From Nitrospira defluvii (GTDB taxonomy: Bacteria > Nitrospirota > Nitrospiria > Nitrospirales > Nitrospiraceae): 64,000 bases of DNA. The DNA lies in NCBI GenBank assembly GCA_011525625.1, contig WYAX01000012.1, forward strand, positions 1-64,000. The letters are read 5' to 3'. The first letter of the stretch is position 1. Each line of letters starts with the position of its first letter. Below the pieces are notes generated by a model. That model had not been told where the DNA came from, did no database searches, and was given only the letters and a program-made list of their open reading frames with translations. Below, piece by piece: positions 12,987 through 22,419 of this stretch. Both the position numbers and the translations under genes were made by a program.

Positions 12987-13439
12987 ATGAAAGTGAGCCT
13001 TCGAGCTACCTACGGGATCATCGCCGCCGTAGACCTTGCGTTGCACGACGCCGAACAGCCGGTCTGTGCGAAGTCCATCGCCAAGCGTCAGGCGATCCCG
13101 GCTCGGTTCCTCGAACAGGTCCTGCATGCGATGAAGAAGGCCGGGGTGGTGACGAGCCAGCGCGGCGCGCAGGGTGGGTACGTGTTGAGTCGCAAGCCGT
13201 CTGAGTTGTCCGTCGCGGACATTCTGGATGCGTTAGAAGGCCCCCTTCTTTCGGGAAACGGAGAGGCCGCTCTTAAGAGCACATCGGCGCGAGCCGCAAA
13301 GCAAGAGGCGCTGCTGGCACACATGTGGGATCGTGTGAAACGGGCGGAACTGAGTGTCTTGTCTGAAGTCACGGTCGAAGAGTTGGCCAAGCGACAACGA
13401 GCCCTCGATGCACAGCATACGTTGATGTATCACATCTGA
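12987..13439 (+). CDS. Rrf2-family regulator (CymR-like, no Fe-S ligands)
   Basis: A 150-aa winged-helix regulator. The N-terminus MKVSLRATYGIIAAVDLAL and the recognition region ARFLEQVLHAMKKAGVVTSQRG with GGYVLSRKP are typical of Rrf2/IscR/CymR proteins. IscR and NsrR coordinate an Fe-S cluster through three cysteines near residue 95; here that stretch has none and only Cys27 is present. This resembles CymR, which controls cysteine metabolism with CysK as partner. It is the first gene behind a good promoter and is followed 50 bp later by sulfite reductase, so it is probably the local regulator of sulfate assimilation. Confidence 0.85.
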   Translation: MKVSLRATYGIIAAVDLALHDAEQPVCAKSIAKRQAIPARFLEQVLHAMKKAGVVTSQRGAQGGYVLSRKPSELSVADILDALEGPLLSGNGEAALKSTSARAAKQEALLAHMWDRVKRAELSVLSEVTVEELAKRQRALDAQHTLMYHI

Positions 13440-13489: not shown

Positions 13490-15988
13490 ATGACGAGTTC
13501 TCATACAGTGGCCATCCGTCCGGCCGTCAAGGCAGAGCCCATTCCTCCTCACATCGTGGAGGAGATCGAGACATTCGAAGCGGAAGCCGATCGCGTCCTT
13601 GCGGGGGATCTTTCAACCGACATCTTCAAGCCATTTCGGCTGCAGTATGGCATTTATGGTCAGCGTCAGCCGGGCGTGCAGATGTTCCGGATCAAGATTC
13701 CGTTCGGCGGTCTGACGGCCAATCAGGTGCGGCGGGTTGCCGAATTGGCCGACCGGTTCGCCACAGGCGTGGGGCACGTGACAACACGCCAAGACATTCA
13801 GCTGCATTTCGTGGAGCTCAAGCATGTGCCGGAGATGATGCGATTGCTGGCCGCTGTGGGCCTGACGACCCGTGAGGCCTGCGCCAACACGGTCCGTAAT
13901 GTGACCGCGTGTCACCTGGCGGGCGTGTGCCAGGGGGAGGTGTTCGACGTCACGCCCTATGCGAAGACGGTGGCCTACCATCTGCTGCGCAATCCGCTGA
14001 ATCAGAGTCTCCCGAGGAAATTCAAGATCGCCCTCTCCGGCTGCCGCCAGGATTGTGCGCTGACCCCGATTCACGATATCGGCCTGCTTGCGGCGAAGCG
14101 GGCGGACGGGACCATCGGCTTTCGAATGGTTGCGGGTGGCGGACTGGGCTCGACTCCGCGCATGGCGCAGGTGCTCAGAGAATTTACGCCCATGGAGGAA
14201 TTGCTGCCGAGTATCGAGGCCGTGATCAAGGTGTTCGACACCCTGGGCAACAGGAAAAATCGCAACAAGGCCCGGATGAAGTTTGTGATCGAAAAGCTCG
14301 GCTTCGAGGAGTTCAAACGTCGCTGGGAAGCGGCCTATGCGGCCATGGGATATGCGGTGCCGACTCATGAACCGATCAAGCTGCTGGAGTATGCCGATAC
14401 GCCGCCGTTGTTGATGCCGACGAAAGCGCCGGGCAGCGCGAACGGGAATGGTAATAGCGGCGGCAATGGACACGGTCTTGCGCAGGGGGCACTCAATGGG
14501 CACGAGACCGCCTTCCAGGCCTGGAAGCGGACCAATGTGGTGCCGCAACGTCAGGCAGGATTCGCAACCGCGGCCATCAAGCTGCCTATGGGTGACCTTA
14601 CCGCCGATCAGATGTGGGTGGTGGCTGATTTGGCCGAGCGGTACTCAAACGGCAACATTCGCACCACCATTAATCAAAATATGGTGATCCGCTGGATTCC
14701 GGAATCCCGCTTGGAAGAATTTCACGGCGAGCTCGTAGCTCATAGCCTCGGGGATCCCGGTGCCGAACTGGTCGAAGACATCATTGCCTGTCCCGGAACC
14801 GACACATGCGGACTGGGTATCACATCGTCAAAGGGGATGGCCCGTGCATTGGCCGAAGTGTTTCCCGCAGGCCAGGTGCCGGAAGACCTTCGAGATGTGA
14901 GCGTCAAGATCAGCGGGTGTCACAATTCATGCGCGCAGCACCATATCGCCACCGTTGGGCTGCACGGCGTCGGCAAACGCCTTGGGGAGCATACGGCGCC
15001 GCACTACGAGTTGCACCTTGGCGGACATGTGGATGGCACGCCGAAAATCGGACAGTTGGCCGTGAAGTTGCCGGCGAAAAGCGTCCCGGCTGCCGTCCGT
15101 CATCTGGTGGACGTGTATCGACGTGATCGCACGACCGGCGAGAGCCTGCAATCGTTCATCGGCAGGGTGGGGAAACATGTCCTCAAGGACGAGCTGATTC
15201 CCTACACGTTTGTACCGCCATACGAGCAGGATCCGACCTACTACTACGATTGGGAAGGTGAAGCGGAATTTGTGTTGGAGGACCTGGGGCCCGGCGAGTG
15301 CGCGGGTGGCGCCTTGGAAATGATCGACGACCGTATGTTGGAGGCGGACCAGGAACTCTATCAGGCCAAATTGCTGGTCGAAAAACATCAATATGCCTTG
15401 TCGGTGAATAAATCGTATCGAGCCGTGTTGGCTGCGGCCAAGGGGCTCTTGGTGACCGAGGGACTGGATCCGGCAACCGATGCGGAAACATTCCAGGAGT
15501 TCGATCAGCGCTTGGCGAGCAAGGGCGTTGTGCCGGCCAATTACGCGAATCTTGGCGCACAGGTCGGCGATCTTGGATCGAAGGACGCAACTGCCGCGGA
15601 GGCCACGGAGAAAATGGCCTTTGCCAAACGGTTCCTCGCGGTCTGCCGGGCGGCCACGGAACAGATGGGAAAGGATCTCAAATTGGCCCAAGTCAAAGAA
15701 GAGGTGCTCCCAACCCCCGCTCCGATCGTAGCACCGGCCGCGCCGGTGTCGACGGCGCCGGTGTACGACTTGCGCGGCGTTGCTTGCCCGATGAACTATG
15801 TGAAGACCAAGCTCAAGCTCGAGATGATGGACAACGGCGAGCGACTCGAAGTGTGGCTCGACGCCGGAGAGCCGATCCGGAACGTGCCCATGAGTTTGCG
15901 GAACGACGGGCATAAGATTCTCGAAGAGGGCCCGTTGGAGCCTGGGGCGACACATTTCAAAATTCTTGTGGAAAAGGTCGAGGGGTAA
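13490..15988 (+). CDS. Siroheme sulfite (or nitrite) reductase fused to HEPN-like and TusA domains
   Basis: An 832-aa fusion. Residues 45-290 and 340-560 are two nitrite/sulfite-reductase halves (ferredoxin-like plus 4Fe-4S domain), joined by a Gly/Asn-rich linker near 315-335. The C-half has the siroheme/4Fe-4S ligands Cys434, Cys440, Cys477 and Cys481. The N-half also has a complete set: Cys141, Cys147, Cys185 and Cys189, unusual because in monomeric SiR/NiR only the C-half binds cofactor. Residues about 610-730 are helical and HEPN-like. Residues 755-830 are a TusA-type sulfur carrier with Cys766 in VACPMNYVK. Its position before cysH, cysD and cysN supports sulfite as substrate. Electron donor is probably ferredoxin. 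Confidence 0.88.
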   Translation: MTSSHTVAIRPAVKAEPIPPHIVEEIETFEAEADRVLAGDLSTDIFKPFRLQYGIYGQRQPGVQMFRIKIPFGGLTANQVRRVAELADRFATGVGHVTTRQDIQLHFVELKHVPEMMRLLAAVGLTTREACANTVRNVTACHLAGVCQGEVFDVTPYAKTVAYHLLRNPLNQSLPRKFKIALSGCRQDCALTPIHDIGLLAAKRADGTIGFRMVAGGGLGSTPRMAQVLREFTPMEELLPSIEAVIKVFDTLGNRKNRNKARMKFVIEKLGFEEFKRRWEAAYAAMGYAVPTHEPIKLLEYADTPPLLMPTKAPGSANGNGNSGGNGHGLAQGALNGHETAFQAWKRTNVVPQRQAGFATAAIKLPMGDLTADQMWVVADLAERYSNGNIRTTINQNMVIRWIPESRLEEFHGELVAHSLGDPGAELVEDIIACPGTDTCGLGITSSKGMARALAEVFPAGQVPEDLRDVSVKISGCHNSCAQHHIATVGLHGVGKRLGEHTAPHYELHLGGHVDGTPKIGQLAVKLPAKSVPAAVRHLVDVYRRDRTTGESLQSFIGRVGKHVLKDELIPYTFVPPYEQDPTYYYDWEGEAEFVLEDLGPGECAGGALEMIDDRMLEADQELYQAKLLVEKHQYALSVNKSYRAVLAAAKGLLVTEGLDPATDAETFQEFDQRLASKGVVPANYANLGAQVGDLGSKDATAAEATEKMAFAKRFLAVCRAATEQMGKDLKLAQVKEEVLPTPAPIVAPAAPVSTAPVYDLRGVACPMNYVKTKLKLEMMDNGERLEVWLDAGEPIRNVPMSLRNDGHKILEEGPLEPGATHFKILVEKVEG

Positions 15989-15996
15989 GAAACATC

Positions 15997-16728
15997 GTGA
16001 CCGAATCGAAGACCGATCAATCCGTGGTCAATCGTCCGGCGGATGACGAGCTGAAATCGCTGAGCGATTCCTTTGAGGAAAAACAACCGTGGGAGGTGCT
16101 GGAATACGCATTGCAGGCGTACCGGCAACGGATCGTGTTGGCCTGTAGTTTCGGGGCCGAGGATGTTGCGCTTGTGGATATGGTGCATCGAATCGATCCG
16201 GAAGCGCCGTTGTTTTACCTCGATACCGATTTCTTGTTTCCCGAAACGTTCGAGGTGCGCGATCGCATTATTGCGCGGTATGAATTGAAGCCCGCCCAGG
16301 TCATTCAGATGAAGCCCCTGTTGACGCCCGAGCAGCAGGGTGCGCAGCATGGCGACGCGCTGTGGGCGAGCCAGCCCGATCAATGTTGTGAGATCAGGAA
16401 GATTGAGCCGCTGACCCGCGTCTTGGCGCAATACGGCGCGTGGATCACTGGAATCAGGAGAGATCAAGCTCCGACGCGAGCCAATGCCGGATTGATCGAG
16501 TGGGATAAGAAGTTCAAGTTAATCAAGTTCAACCCCTTGGCCCGCTGGACCAGCGAGCAGGTCTGGATGTACCTCCAGCTCCACGAAGTCCCGTACAACA
16601 GGCTCCACGACCGCAACTACCCCAGCATCGGCTGCACCCATTGCACCGCGCCTGTCCTTCCGGGCGACGATCCGCGTTCTGGCCGGTGGAAGAATTTCGG
16701 CAAGACCGAATGCGGGCTGCACAAATAA
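15997..16728 (+). CDS. cysH: Adenylyl-sulfate (APS) reductase, thioredoxin-dependent
   Basis: Reduces APS to sulfite and AMP. The 243-aa protein has the PP-loop-like LACSFGAEDVAL, then Cys130-Cys131 and Cys213-x2-Cys216, the four ligands of a 4Fe-4S cluster, and the catalytic Cys239 in the terminal ECGLH. The cluster ligands mark the APS-using (bacterial/plant) type rather than the PAPS type of E. coli. The start is GTG at 15997, 8 bp after the sulfite reductase stop. It works between CysDN and the sulfite reductase. Confidence 0.93.
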   Translation: MTESKTDQSVVNRPADDELKSLSDSFEEKQPWEVLEYALQAYRQRIVLACSFGAEDVALVDMVHRIDPEAPLFYLDTDFLFPETFEVRDRIIARYELKPAQVIQMKPLLTPEQQGAQHGDALWASQPDQCCEIRKIEPLTRVLAQYGAWITGIRRDQAPTRANAGLIEWDKKFKLIKFNPLARWTSEQVWMYLQLHEVPYNRLHDRNYPSIGCTHCTAPVLPGDDPRSGRWKNFGKTECGLHK

Positions 16729-16769: not shown

Positions 16770-17828
16770 ATGCAACATCTGCTCGCCAAAGTCGCTAAGG
16801 GCCAAAAAACGTCCAAAGATCTCACCTGGGAAGAAGCCAAGCAGGCCATGCGTCTCATGATTGAAGGGACGGCCACACCCGCGCAGGTCGGGGCGTTTCT
16901 CACGGCCATGCGCTTCAAGTCGGAATCTGTGACGGAGCTGGCGGCGTTCACGGCCACCGCGCGGCAATATGTGCCGCCCGTGCCGGTCCGTGCCGGACTT
17001 GGAGTCGTCGATGTGCCTGTCTATGCGGGCAAGCGGGAGACGTTTCACGCCATCGTCCCTGCTGCCATCGTCGCGGCCGCAGCGGGAGCGGTGTTGTTGC
17101 TTCACGGTGTGGACGGTCCTTCCGACCGGCAGGGTGTTTCATCCGTGCTGAAGCTGTTGGGAGTGCCGGTTGATCTCACCGCCAAGCTTGTCGGGCCTGA
17201 ATTGGAAAGAGTCGGTGTCGCCTACATGGATCTGGCGCTTTATCACCCGCCGGTCAGCCGGTTTCTCGAGATGCGGCAGGAATTGGGTGTGCGAAATTTC
17301 TTCCACCCCGTGGCGAGGATGCTCAATCCTGCACGGGCCGCCTCGCAGGTGATCGGGTTGTCGCATCCGCCCTATTTCGAAAAGACGGTCGAGGCCTTGC
17401 GCATGCTGAGTTGTCCGCGTGCGCTGGTGATCCGCGGGGTCGAGGGCGACCCGGAACTATCGATCGGGAATACGACCCGTCTGTTGGAGCTCAAGGGCGA
17501 GCGCATCACGCCATTCACATTCCAGCCCAAGGACGCTGGGTTGACAATGGCGACGTTTCGGGAAATGGCCGGGTTCCCGGCCGAACAGCGTGAACGTGAG
17601 GCGGATCTGATCAAGCGCATCGTCGCCAATGAAATACAGGGCGGGCAACGCGACTGGGTGTTGCTCAACGCGGCCATGCTGCTGTATGCGGCAGGCAAGG
17701 GGACATCGATTGCGGGCAATTTGGCCACCGCTCGGCAGGCACTCGAGTCGGGGCAAGCCAAGGCGAAGCTGGCGGCGCTCAGTGTCGGCGCCGGAACCGT
17801 GTCGAAGGTCGGTCTCTCGGCACAATAA
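16770..17828 (+). CDS. TrpD-family (glycosyltransferase family 3-like) protein in a cys operon
   Basis: A 352-aa protein with the anthranilate phosphoribosyltransferase fold. The N-terminal helical domain ([24 protein letters not shown] in pieces) is followed by an alpha/beta domain. The PRPP-binding GTGGD loop is replaced by a [11 protein letters not shown] segment and the KHGNR motif by [10 protein letters not shown]. It is therefore unlikely to be a classical TrpD. It resembles TrpD2/YbiB-type homologues, some of which bind nucleic acid. It lies 41 bp after cysH and 13 bp before cysD, so it is almost certainly co-transcribed with sulfate assimilation. Its role there is unknown. Confidence 0.75.
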
Positions 17829-17841
17829 GAAGAGTGGAACC

Positions 17842-18639
17842 ATGAAGCACTTACGTCAACTTGAAGACCAAAGCGTCTATATCCTTCGCGAAGCCTATAA
17901 ACATTTCAATCACCTCGCTATGCTCTGGTCGATGGGGAAGGATTCAACGGTGCTGCTGTGGCTGGCCCGCAAGGCCTTCTTCGGACACGTGCCGTTTCCC
18001 CTCTTGCACGTGGACACGAGTTATAAAATTCCGGCCATGATTGAATATCGCGACCGGATTGCTCGTGAGTGGCGACTCAATTTGGTGGTAGGGCAGAATA
18101 AGGAAGCACTGGCCGCCGGGATGAACCACACGCTGGGTCGGGACGTCTGCTGCACGGCGTTGAAGACCACGGCGATGAAAAATCTGGTCGAGGAAAAAGG
18201 CTATACCGGCATCATTCTCGGGGTGCGTGCAGATGAGGACAGTACCAGGGCCAAGGAGCGATACTTTTCGCCCCGCGACAAACACGGCGATTGGGACTTT
18301 CGCGATCAGCCGCCGGAATTGTGGGACCAGTTCAAGACGACCTTCCCGCCGGGGACACACATTCGCATCCACCCCCTGCTCGATTGGACCGAGATCAACA
18401 TCTGGGAATACATCCAGCACGAGAACATTCCCTTCATGGATCTTTATCTCGACAGGGGCGATGGCACGCGGTATCGCAGCCTGGGCTGCGCTCCCTGCAC
18501 CACCCCCATCAAGTCGACGGCGAAGACGGTGGACGAGATTATTATCGAGCTGCGCAAGAGCACTGTGGCAGAGCGGGCCGGTCGTGCGCAGGATGCAGGG
18601 CGGGGCATGGAGATGCTTCGTAAAAAGGGCTACATGTGA
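17842..18639 (+). CDS. cysD: Sulfate adenylyltransferase subunit 2
   Basis: The ATP-sulfurylase subunit that forms APS from ATP and sulfate. The 265-aa protein has [17 protein letters not shown] (PP-loop SxGKDS), [30 protein letters not shown] and [11 protein letters not shown], all typical of CysD. The true start is ATG at 17842; the open frame upstream of it overlaps the previous gene. The partner cysN follows after 82 bp. Confidence 0.96.
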
Positions 18640-18721: not shown

Positions 18722-20569
18722 ATGACACAGCATGATCAAGGTAAGCCGCAAGAGAGTCTGAACATCGTGATCGTGGGGCATGTCGACCACGGGAAATCCA
18801 CGTTAGTGGGCCGTCTTTATGCCGATACCGGCTCCTTGCCGGAAGGCAAGCTGGAAAAAGTGCAGGCCATCTGCCGGCAGCAGGGCAAGGAATTCGAATA
18901 TGCATTCCTGTTCGATGCGTTTCTGGAAGAGCAGGAGCAGGGCATTACGATCGACACCGCGCGCACGTTTTTCATTTGGAACGAACGGCAGTACATCATC
19001 ATCGACGCTCCGGGGCACAAGGAGTTCCTGAAAAACATGATTTCCGGCGCTGCTCGTGCCGAGGCGGCGCTGCTGTTGATCGATGCCGTGGAAGGTGTGC
19101 GCGAACAGTCCAAGAAGCACGGATATCTGCTGTCTCTGTTGGGGGTCACGCAGTTTGCGGTCGTCGTCAACAAAATGGATCTGGTGGGGTATCGACAGGA
19201 CGTGTTTGACGGGATCGAAAAGGAATACCGGGAGTTCCTCGGGCAGTTTCGGGCCGTGCCGCAACAGATGATCCCTGTCAGCGCCAAAATGGGCGACAAC
19301 ATTGCGGTGCGCAGCCGCCACATGAATTGGTATCAAGGTCCTACGGTGTTAGATACCCTCGCGCTCTTCAAGAAAGAGCAAGTGCGTTCCGAGCAGCCCC
19401 TCCGATTCCCCTTGCAGGATGTGTACAAGTTCGATGCACGACGGATTTTAGCAGGACGTATTACCGCAGGCCGCCTGAAAGTCGGCGATCATCTGGTCTT
19501 TTCACCATCCAATAAAACGGCGATTGTGCAATCGATCGAGGGATTCAATGTCGATCCGCCGACGAGTGAGGCCCAGGCCGGACAATCGGTCGGGATCACA
19601 CTCGACGAACAAATTTTTGTGGAGCGCGGCGAAATTGTCTCCCATCGGGATTCGGTCCCGCTGGTTTCGACCGCTATTCGGGTGAACTTGTTTTGGATGG
19701 GGCGGCGGCCGCTGGAAAAAGGGCGGAAATATACCTTGCGCTTGGCGACGCGAGAGGTCGCTTGTGAGGTAGCGACGATACACCGGATTATCGATACGGC
19801 CGACCTGGCCCAACTTCAGGAAAGCCAGTCGGTCGCCAAAAATCAGGTGGCCGAATTGACACTGCGGGTCAAGTCGCCGCTTGCATTCGACCTCTCGTCT
19901 TCCTTCGAGGCGACCGGTCGCTTCGTGCTGGTGGATGAATATGACATTTCCGGCGGCGGGATCATCACCGAACTGGTGCACGATGAACAGGAGGGGCTGC
20001 GCGAAGAAGCCCGACAACGGGAATATGCCTGGCTGACGGGAGATGTTCGTCCCGAAGATCGAGCCGTGCAGTATGGGCATCGAGCGGCCATCGTGTTGTT
20101 CACCGGCTCGGCCCAGACCGGCAAGACCTTCCTCGCGCGACGGGTCGAGGCCTTGCTGGTTGCCGACAGCCGGCACGCCTATCTGTTGGAGGGCGAAAAC
20201 CTTTTGCAGGGGCTCGATGCGGATTTGTCGGCCGCCGATCCCTCGTTCGCCTCGGAGCGGGTGCGTCGATACGGCGAGGTGGCTAGGCTGCTGATCGATA
20301 CGGGGCTCATCGTGGTGTCTACGAGCAAAACGTTCGGCATCAATTATCAACGCATGGCTGAGATGATACGAACCCTGGTTCAGCCGGCCCCAGTGATCGC
20401 GGTGCATATGAGTCGAGCCGGGGAGGAGCCGCCGCCGAATACGGATCTGCATTTTGCCGGGCCGCAGGACTTCGATGCGGCCGCTCGCCAGATTATTGAA
20501 GAGTTGAAGCGGCGGGGCGTGTTGATTCAGCCCTCCGGCACCAGGTCCTCCATTCAATATTCCATCTGA
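18722..20569 (+). CDS. cysN: Sulfate adenylyltransferase subunit 1 with degenerate APS-kinase domain
   Basis: The GTPase subunit of ATP sulfurylase (615 aa). The N-terminal 430 residues are a translational-GTPase fold: [22 protein letters not shown] and VVNKMDLV. Residues 455-615 align with the APS-kinase part of CysNC. The Walker A is kept as GSAQTGKT and the [15 protein letters not shown] stretch is clear. However, the DGDN motif has become LEGEN, and the FISPF motif and the usual C-terminal KGLYKKAR are missing. Since the neighbouring CysH is an APS reductase, PAPS is not needed for assimilation, which fits a decaying or repurposed kinase domain. Confidence 0.92.
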
Positions 20570-20716: not shown

Positions 20717-21643
20717 ATGACCATGGCTGCCGGTAAGGATCTCAAGTCGATCCTAACAAAACTGCAGTATTCCGACGACGCGAAAGTCGTGCAACAGATT
20801 ACCGCGCAGATGAAGCAGGTGCAGGCCCGTATGGCCGGCATCAAGCGGAAGCTTGTGGTGATGAGCGGGAAGGGCGGAGTCGGGAAGAGCATGACCACCG
20901 TGAATCTCGCGTTGGCATTCGCGCGGCAGGGAGCCAAGGTTGGATTGCTCGATGTGGACTTGAACGGTCCCTGTGTCCCGCGGATGATGGGTTTGCATGG
21001 CCAGTCGTTGACCATGAGCCCCGATGGAGCATTGCCGCCGGTCGGCCCGCTCGGGATCAAAGTCGCCTCGATGGATTTTTTCCTCGGCGATGCGTCGCCG
21101 GTCCGGTGGAAGGGCCCCATGGATCTGAGCCCCGTGTGGCTGGGATTGATGGAAATGAACGTGATCCGGGAGTTCCTCGCCGATGTGGCGTGGGGTGAAC
21201 TGGATTACCTTCTCGCTGACTTGCCTCCGGGGGCAGCCGCAGATAAACCGCCTGTGATCGCCGGATTCATTCCGGATCTGGCCGGGGCGATCGTCGTGAC
21301 GACACCGTCGGAGGTGGCGTCTGATGTCGTACAGAAATCAGTGACATACGCCAGGGACATGGGTATCCGGGTGTTAGGTATTGTGGAAAATATGAGCGAG
21401 TATCGGTGCCCGTCCTGTGGCGCTGAGAATGAACTGTTCGAGGGGAATACCGAGGCGATGTGCGAGGTGCTGGACTTACCGTTGCTGGGCCGTATTCCCT
21501 TCGATCGTACCCTCGCCAAGACGTTCGACAAGGGACAACCGCTTCTCGATCCTGACTACCCGACCATTCGGAAGTATCAGGACATTGTCGGGCGGATTCA
21601 AGCGTTACTGGATTATAAAAAAGTCCTGGCGGAAAAGCTGTAG
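20717..21643 (+). CDS. Mrp/ApbC-type P-loop ATPase, Fe-S cluster carrier family
   Basis: A 308-aa ParA-like ATPase with the deviant Walker A VMSGKGGVGKSMTT, the Mrp signature LDVDLNGPCVPRMMG, Walker B in YLLADLPPGA and the Mrp Cys pair in YRCPSCGAENELF. Mrp/ApbC/Nbp35 proteins bind and deliver Fe-S clusters. About 45 N-terminal residues (helical) precede the core; a second ATG lies at 20723. The next gene, 26 bp downstream, encodes a zinc-ribbon/PCP_red protein, suggesting joint function. Confidence 0.92.
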   Translation: MTMAAGKDLKSILTKLQYSDDAKVVQQITAQMKQVQARMAGIKRKLVVMSGKGGVGKSMTTVNLALAFARQGAKVGLLDVDLNGPCVPRMMGLHGQSLTMSPDGALPPVGPLGIKVASMDFFLGDASPVRWKGPMDLSPVWLGLMEMNVIREFLADVAWGELDYLLADLPPGAAADKPPVIAGFIPDLAGAIVVTTPSEVASDVVQKSVTYARDMGIRVLGIVENMSEYRCPSCGAENELFEGNTEAMCEVLDLPLLGRIPFDRTLAKTFDKGQPLLDPDYPTIRKYQDIVGRIQALLDYKKVLAEKL

Positions 21644-21669
21644 GCGCACCGACCTGGAAGGGGGATCCT

Positions 21670-22419
21670 ATGAAGTTCGTTTGCCTGAACTGCGAGACCT
21701 ACATGACGTTTCAGAAGGTCGAAAAACCCGGTGAGGGCTCACTCGGTGTGTTCTTCGGCTGTCCATCGTGCGACGCAAAGTTTTCCATGGTGACGAATCC
21801 CGGCGAGACGCAAATGGTTGCGTCCCTCGGCGTGAAGCTGGGAGGCCGAACAGAGACCGCGGAGCCGTTCGAGATGACGCGTGGAACCCTGAAGGATGAG
21901 GCGCAGGCCGGTGCAGGGCAGATGGCGGCCTACCTCAACGAGAAAATCCAGGGTGGTCAACCGGTGACGGCCAAACCAGCTGCGCCGGCGACGAGTGGAG
22001 AAAAGACCAGCGGGGGATGTCCGTTCTCGGCGATGGTCGCTGAAATGGGCCTGACCTCGGGCGGCAAGCCTCAGAATGGCGCCGGCGCGAGCGAATTTGC
22101 CTGGACCCCGGATGCCAAAGAAAAACTGGAGCGCCTCCCGTCCTTCGTGAAGCCAATGGTGCAAAGCAGCGTCGAGGCCTATGCGCGTAAACATGGATAT
22201 AAGTCGATCACGCTGCAAGTTATGGATGATTCCAAGAACGATTCCCCCAACGGGATCGCCTGGACGAAAGATGCCGAGCAGCGTATGGATAACATCCCTG
22301 ACTTCATCCGTCCGATGGCCAGACGAGAAATCGAACGGATTGCCAAGGAGCGGGGCTTGGCCGAGATCACCGCGCAAGTGATGGACGAGGCCAAGGAAAA
22401 GTTTATGAAATTTATGTAG
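21670..22419 (+). CDS. Zinc-ribbon protein with two PCP_red-type repeats
   Basis: A 249-aa protein. The N-terminus has a ribbon of Cys5-x2-Cys8 and Cys31-x2-Cys34. A low-complexity middle (about 75-140) contains GGCPFSAM. Two C-terminal repeats begin at Trp145 (WTPDAKEKLERLPSFVKPM) and Trp198 (WTKDAEQRMDNIPDFIRPM). The repeat matches the small domain found at the end of the light-independent protochlorophyllide reductase B subunit (PCP_red). No chlorophyll genes are near. It follows the Mrp ATPase and may be a partner in metal-cofactor handling; this is inference. A paralogue with four repeats lies at 36841. Confidence 0.8.
   Translation: MKFVCLNCETYMTFQKVEKPGEGSLGVFFGCPSCDAKFSMVTNPGETQMVASLGVKLGGRTETAEPFEMTRGTLKDEAQAGAGQMAAYLNEKIQGGQPVTAKPAAPATSGEKTSGGCPFSAMVAEMGLTSGGKPQNGAGASEFAWTPDAKEKLERLPSFVKPMVQSSVEAYARKHGYKSITLQVMDDSKNDSPNGIAWTKDAEQRMDNIPDFIRPMARREIERIAKERGLAEITAQVMDEAKEKFMKFM

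Follow-up and report, generated by a model that had tools for sequence, protein, structure and literature searches.

A fused sulfite reductase in a sulfate-assimilation operon

All positions given here are those of the window, the 64,000-nt stretch of Nitrospira defluvii DNA (GCA_011525625.1, contig WYAX01000012.1, forward strand) that was analysed. A single ATG frame encodes a protein, here called SIR, in which Pfam detects two NIR_SIR_ferr and two NIR_SIR stretches in tandem, followed by HEPN-like and TusA domains (Table 1). An earlier note had proposed this architecture; the open frame and the Pfam repeats confirm the fusion of two reductase halves, and Pfam together with a fold search confirms the two added domains. 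Similarly, each of the cysteines that the note had named (141/147/185/189, 434/440/477/481 and 766) is at the position given. The frame is open and alignable in nearly all sampled Nitrospiria genomes.

Table 1. Features of the SIR locus and its operon
Feature	Position	Strand	Basis or conservation
Rrf2-family regulator, CymR-like below cut-off	12987..13439	+	Pfam/NCBIfam; conserved upstream of SIR
Fused sulfite reductase-HEPN-TusA protein, 832 aa	13490..15988	+	Single ATG open frame, Pfam, orthologs
N-half NIR_SIR_ferr + NIR_SIR, about aa 45-306	13622..14407	+	Pfam and Fsr structural match
Arg100, substrate/siroheme quartet	13787..13789	+	Alignment of halves
Cys131, five residues ahead of Arg136	13880..13882	+	Invariant in 138/138 orthologs
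Arg136, substrate/siroheme quartet	13895..13897	+	Alignment of halves
N-half first pair, Cys141-x5-Cys147	13910..13930	+	Ortholog and panel alignments
Lys177 and Lys179, substrate/siroheme quartet	14018..14026	+	Alignment of halves
N-half second pair, Cys185-x3-Cys189	14042..14056	+	Ortholog and panel alignments
C-half NIR_SIR_ferr + NIR_SIR, about aa 344-561	14519..15172	+	Pfam; structural match to SiRHP
C-half first pair, Cys434-x5-Cys440, catalytic centre	14789..14809	+	Invariant in 141/141
C-half second pair, Cys477-x3-Cys481, catalytic centre	14918..14932	+	Invariant in 141/141
GECAG linker, aa 602-606, Cys604	15293..15307	+	Cys604 invariant in 139/139 readable orthologs
HEPN four-helix domain	15305..15670	+	Pfam 23.5 bits (cut-off 22, marginal); fold match 2hsb, Z 15.2
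TusA domain, active Cys766 in CPMN	15764..15964	+	Pfam 57.5 bits; Cys766 in 133/133
CysH, (P)APS reductase with CC...CxxC and ECGLH	15997..16728	+	Profiles; conserved downstream of SIR
CysD, sulfate adenylyltransferase small subunit	17839..18639	+	Profiles; conserved context
CysN with C-terminal APS-kinase-like domain	18722..20569	+	Profiles; conserved context

The gene order in Nitrospira is Rrf2-SIR-CysH-TrpD2-like-CysD-CysNC. This sulfate-assimilation operon, the R-R-K-K quartet of the N-half and the cysteine tetrad of the C-half support that the fusion is a sulfite reductase. The best NCBIfam match is to NirA, at 281 bits, and would favour a nitrite reductase; however, this score is far under the cut-off of 523, the operon is one for sulfate assimilation, and the genome encodes a separate NirA, next to two ORFs that by eye look like an FNT channel and GlnA. 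It is thus extremely improbable that SIR is a nitrite reductase. None of the named equivalog cut-offs of NCBIfam was reached, with CysI at 130 versus 757 and sir at 119 versus 732, and the same is true for DsrAB, with dsrA at 35 versus 393 and dsrB at 77 versus 342.

Within the operon, the TrpD2/YbiB-like glycosyltransferase-fold gene (16770-17828) is kept across Nitrospira, and such a gene also lies beside Sat in locus L187. The CC...CxxC motif of CysH resembles those of APS reductases. The APS-kinase part of CysNC matches positions 2-108 of the 152 of the Pfam model and may be degenerate; its DGDN-like motif reads EGEN. The operon is followed (20717-22419) by genes for an Fe-S carrier of the Mrp/ApbC type and for a protein that has two PCP_red domains; relatives of both also follow Sat in locus L180.

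In a genome scan, nearly all of the best 80 matches were named Nitrospira or Nitrospirae/Nitrospirota, and among them the closest loci are those of Nitrospira MAGs (up to 92%) and N. moscoviensis (75%). Orthologs are present across the Nitrospiria that were sampled and also in several further families of Nitrospirota, with identities falling to about 40%; the nearest relatives found outside Nitrospirota, from a Thermus oshimai plasmid and the nitrite/sulfite reductases of Persicobacteraceae, are 33-43% identical. A description of a SIR with a HEPN or TusA domain was not found in the open-access literature.

The N-half cysteine tetrad is conserved

The earlier note had described a full cysteine tetrad in both halves, and this observation stands: the N-half set is conserved, and its positions are those of the ligands in a siroheme domain. 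In 138 readable orthologs, these positions read C-C-C-C in 132, C-S-C-H in five and C-C-C-R in one. Among 27 diverse rows with the full tetrad, pairwise identity of the core falls to 42%, and the core has just 96 invariant columns out of 531. The five C-S-C-H rows form one clade (f9) with the joint change C147S, C189H and S183E, a combination also present in the Thermus relative. Given the near-complete retention and these paired changes, we conclude that the tetrad is, on the evidence of the alignments, under selection. Moreover, the definition of an assimilatory siroheme sulfite reductase has one cluster site, and because the 132 orthologs have Cys at each of the four N-half ligand positions, SIR is, as judged by sequence, a variant and not a plain member of this group. 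Cys131 presumably corresponds to Cys161 of M. tuberculosis NirA, which forms part of a Cys-Tyr crosslink and likewise precedes an active-site Arg.

An AlphaFold2 model of SIR, calculated from an alignment of 56 Nitrospira orthologs, is of low overall confidence (mean pLDDT 63, pTM 0.40, active-site loops below 50). In this low-confidence model, residues 54-288 of the N-half match residues 343-620 of the Fsr siroheme domain 7np8 (Z 14.3, rmsd 6.6, 215 residues); thus, the model gives no hint that the N-half cysteines cannot meet.

In the panel alignment, the N-half tetrad is absent from E. coli CysI, Nostoc Sir, the Agrobacterium/Acinetobacter/Pseudomonas type and Bacteroidota; in other alignments, M. 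tuberculosis NirA and plant NiR have no cysteine at the tetrad positions. C-x-C-C is present in NirA-type rows of Nitrospirota, Halocatena and Nonomuraea as well as in the NirA of the N. defluvii genome, and some NAD(P)H-reductase fusions have C-x-C-x. In most NirA-type reductases of the sample, three of the four cysteines are present in the N-half, and the fourth ligand is not constant. The claim that classical enzymes keep the tetrad just in the C-half is thus correct for CysI, plastid and cyanobacterial Sir, plant NiR and M. tuberculosis NirA; most sampled NirA-type enzymes depart from it. The full N-half tetrad was not found in 16 plasmid-borne relatives from eight phyla. In the sampled sequences, the full tetrad is peculiar to the SIR family, and three-quarters of it is common.

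Since C-x-C-C in NirA-type enzymes comes without a constant fourth ligand, part of the N-half pattern may be structural. The N-half cysteines could even be free of an Fe-S cluster and instead be an evolutionary remnant, be paired in a disulfide or form a mononuclear metal site stabilising the fold; the variable remaining positions of the NirA-type C-x-C-C and C-x-C-x sets and the C-S-C-H of one clade and Thermus are consistent with this possibility. However, all four cysteines are kept in all but six of the orthologs (132/138) and otherwise have mostly changed in concert, and their positions are those of the cluster ligands of Fsr and of the C-half, making a cluster-free N-half somewhat unlikely.

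In a tree of the halves, N-halves and C-halves separate into two clades that mirror each other (SH-aLRT 99 each), and the N-half of SIR is placed among all other N-halves. The tetrad therefore belongs to the N-half lineage, and a recent copy or gene conversion of the N-half from the C-half was rejected because the halves lie in separate clades. The SIR family is nested and not basal, with deep branches that are not firmly placed; Cys147 may have been either retained or regained.

One siroheme centre or two

The quartet that binds the substrate and siroheme is present in all 70 aligned N-halves, as RRKK in 51, RRKN in 10 and RRRN in 9. The mirror positions in the C-half of SIR are Asn395, Glu429, Asp469 and Ser471; the mean number of basic residues at the four positions is 0.59 in C-halves of the family, 0.44 in other aSiR/NiR C-halves, 3.0 in both DsrB and DsrA and 4.0 in single-half proteins. 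The sulfite-binding R-R-K-K, found in the N-half only, is predicted to serve the normal C-half centre. As the C-half is without mirror basics, a centre in the N-half would miss the anion-binding wall that is found even round the structural siroheme of DsrAB, which argues for an N-half cluster without siroheme or, at most, with a non-catalytic siroheme.

The earlier note had suggested two siroheme-4Fe-4S centres per chain. SIR would then be a single-polypeptide counterpart of DsrAB, in which one centre is catalytic and the other structural or weakly active; the C-x5-C...C-x3-C spacing of the N-half, which is the same as in the C-half and Fsr, and the modelled match of the N-half to the Fsr siroheme domain would fit this arrangement, as would the fused, duplicated ancestor proposed for such enzymes (PMC10229431). 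However, the count of C-half basics, an indirect test, does not support two sirohemes, being close to that of ordinary aSiR/NiR C-halves and far from that of DsrB, and we regard this arrangement as improbable. In total, the residue patterns suggest that a second [4Fe-4S] cluster without a catalytic siroheme is likelier than a second siroheme.

The TusA domain and the fate of the sulfur

The linker after the SIR core has the fuller form G-x-GECAG, with GECSG in some rows, and its cysteine is also present in the Thermus and three Bacteroidota relatives. The Thermus protein ends in ...GRGECAV, with the linker cysteine on the C-terminal tail, a position reminiscent of the terminal cysteine arm of DsrC. 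In the fold search with the low-confidence model, HEPN was matched over residues 606-727 (Z 15.2) and TusA over residues 754-831 (Z 12.7). A motif scan of the HEPN domain did not find the R-x4-6-H ribonuclease motif, and a role as a toxin or RNase was rejected for this reason; the domain is probably a scaffold.

Throughout the SIR family, the TusA motif is CP-x-N and not CPxP. The association with TusA is real: the domain is fused in most lineages, and in family f7 a separate TusA gene lies just downstream of the SIR gene. One genome (G138, locus L181) has two TusA domains and three DsrE-family genes. In another (G015), the SIR-TusA gene is followed directly by a cysteine-synthase-like (PALP) ORF, and a ThiF-JAMM-ThiS cluster has a TusA gene at its head.

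The N. defluvii genome encodes on contig C15 (L226:1173-6241) the gene order cysteine synthase-ThiF-PALP/ThrC-like-ThiS-like-NIL-like-ThiF-JAMM, which is kept in 7 of 10 relatives tested; the ThiS-like carrier ends in GG, and the small NIL-like ORF was called by eye. In Wolinella and M. tuberculosis, thiocarboxylated carriers serve the synthesis of homocysteine or cysteine, and in Wolinella the sulfide comes from Sir. The similar locus suggests thiocarboxylate-based synthesis of cysteine or homocysteine in Nitrospira, and with these precedents protein-bound sulfur transfer is a reasonable reading. By contrast, a cysteine synthase that scores above the curated cut-off is present, and free sulfide could therefore suffice. 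Altogether, Cys604, the SIR and TusA gene pairs, the AprAB/Sat operons described below and the ThiF/ThiS/JAMM locus favour a protein-bound hand-off of sulfur, as we infer it. Arg at position 100 together with C-x5-C is the assimilatory signature that was tied to full six-electron reduction in a study of Fsr, and these active-site residues predict that SIR by itself would form free sulfide and not persulfide (PMC10229431).

Deeper lineages and the direction of the reaction

In deeper lineages, the order is Rrf2-TauE-AprA-AprB-SIR-Sat (L180:3210-10457), with similar operons in L181, L186 and L187, and CysH-SIR-Sat in L183. The families in L180 (TauE, AprA, AprB, Sat), L181 (DsrE), L183 (CysH) and L187 (Sat, TrpD-like) were checked with HMMs and the rest were called by eye from N-termini. 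Dissimilatory-type AprAB is thus found in place of CysH in these Nitrospirota, with a TauE-type exporter and Rrf2 present.

These operons, and the three DsrE-family genes and double TusA in L181, could point to a dissimilatory or reversible enzyme that, with AprAB and Sat, oxidises TusA- or DsrE-bound sulfane sulfur to sulfite in the deeper lineages, in the manner of rDsrAB, and in Nitrospira was later turned to assimilation. However, the active-site residues are of the assimilatory type, and in genome G144 SIR is the single sulfite reductase match at E 0.001, which makes an assimilatory role probable there; moreover, the GTP-driven CysDN of Nitrospira favours the reductive direction. We consider such a dissimilatory or reversible enzyme very unlikely. 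SIR is probably the assimilatory sulfite reductase of Nitrospira, reducing sulfite at one site.

A model for SIR

Our preferred reading, to which we assign a probability of about 0.45, combines one canonical siroheme-[4Fe-4S] centre with a second [4Fe-4S] cluster in the N-half and capture by TusA for protein-bound delivery of sulfur. Sulfite would be reduced at the single siroheme-[4Fe-4S] centre, with the cluster on Cys434/440/477/481 and with the substrate and the siroheme carboxylates held by Arg100, Arg136, Lys177 and Lys179 of the N-half. The putative second [4Fe-4S] cluster would sit on the N-half tetrad, at the pseudo-symmetric position and with no catalytic siroheme, as an electron relay or store or as a structural centre. 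Reduced sulfur would be captured on Cys766 of the tethered TusA, perhaps through a mobile Cys604 (a presumptive route and chemistry), with HEPN as a spacer or dock, and could be delivered in protein-bound form to the ThiF/ThiS-like/cysteine-synthase machinery. A stricter version, in which both ancestral centres are kept (a cluster or a siroheme-cluster per half) and sulfur moves from the siroheme over the Cys604 arm to TusA Cys766 and into thiocarboxylate-type cysteine synthesis without release of sulfide, seems doubtful.

CysI/SiRHP, ferredoxin-Sir and M. tuberculosis NirA resemble SIR in the two-half fusion, the C-half tetrad, the N-half R-R-K-K and the assimilation operon but are without the N-half tetrad, HEPN, TusA and the GECAG linker. 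NirA-type nitrite reductases share the fold, the quartet and, in most sampled rows, three of the four N-half cysteines; by contrast, their position 147 is N/S/D/A/G/K, they have neither HEPN nor TusA, and their gene context is different. DsrAB is similar in that each half of its pseudo-dimer has cluster ligands and, in some lineages, in its link to TusA/DsrE; however, it consists of two chains with ferredoxin inserts, has Thr for Arg in DsrA and three of four basics in DsrB, whereas SIR is one chain without inserts and mirror basics. Fsr and Dsr-LP have C-x5-C...C-x3-C with R-R-K-K in one half, as in SIR, and some such single-half proteins of Nitrospirota are TusA-linked; unlike SIR, they are a single half with a ferredoxin insert. 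The T. oshimai and Persicobacteraceae proteins share the GECAG cysteine with SIR; the former has C-S-C-H in the N-half, ends in GECAV and is without TusA, while the Bacteroidota proteins have neither N-half cysteines nor TusA.

Fused sulfite reductases are thought to descend from a duplicated one-centre ancestor, one centre then being lost (PMC10229431). With all eight ligand cysteines kept, the SIR family allows this loss to be tested in an extant enzyme, and the series CCCC, CSCH, CxCC, CxCx and none provides natural variants of it. Moreover, the tethered TusA and the conservation of Cys604 point to a possible delivery of protein-bound sulfur by an assimilatory reductase, similar to that from DsrAB to DsrC, in organisms that are central to nitrification.

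Other reductases and TusA proteins of Nitrospirota

Single-half reductases of other Nitrospirota have TusA fused, as in a 384-aa protein with a ferredoxin insert (L175:1336-2487), or adjacent, as in L173 and L174, where reductase and TusA are neighbouring overlapping genes. In L148-L162 of Nitrospirota, fusions of about 1020-1200 aa combine NirA-type halves, of which the N-half reads C-x-C-C or C-x-C-x, with an NAD(P)H reductase (Pyr_redox_2, BFD [2Fe-2S]). Finally, the N. defluvii genome encodes a free-standing CP-x-N TusA on contig C4 (L219:4882-5223), upstream of apparent hemA, hemC and siroheme-type methyltransferase genes (called by eye).
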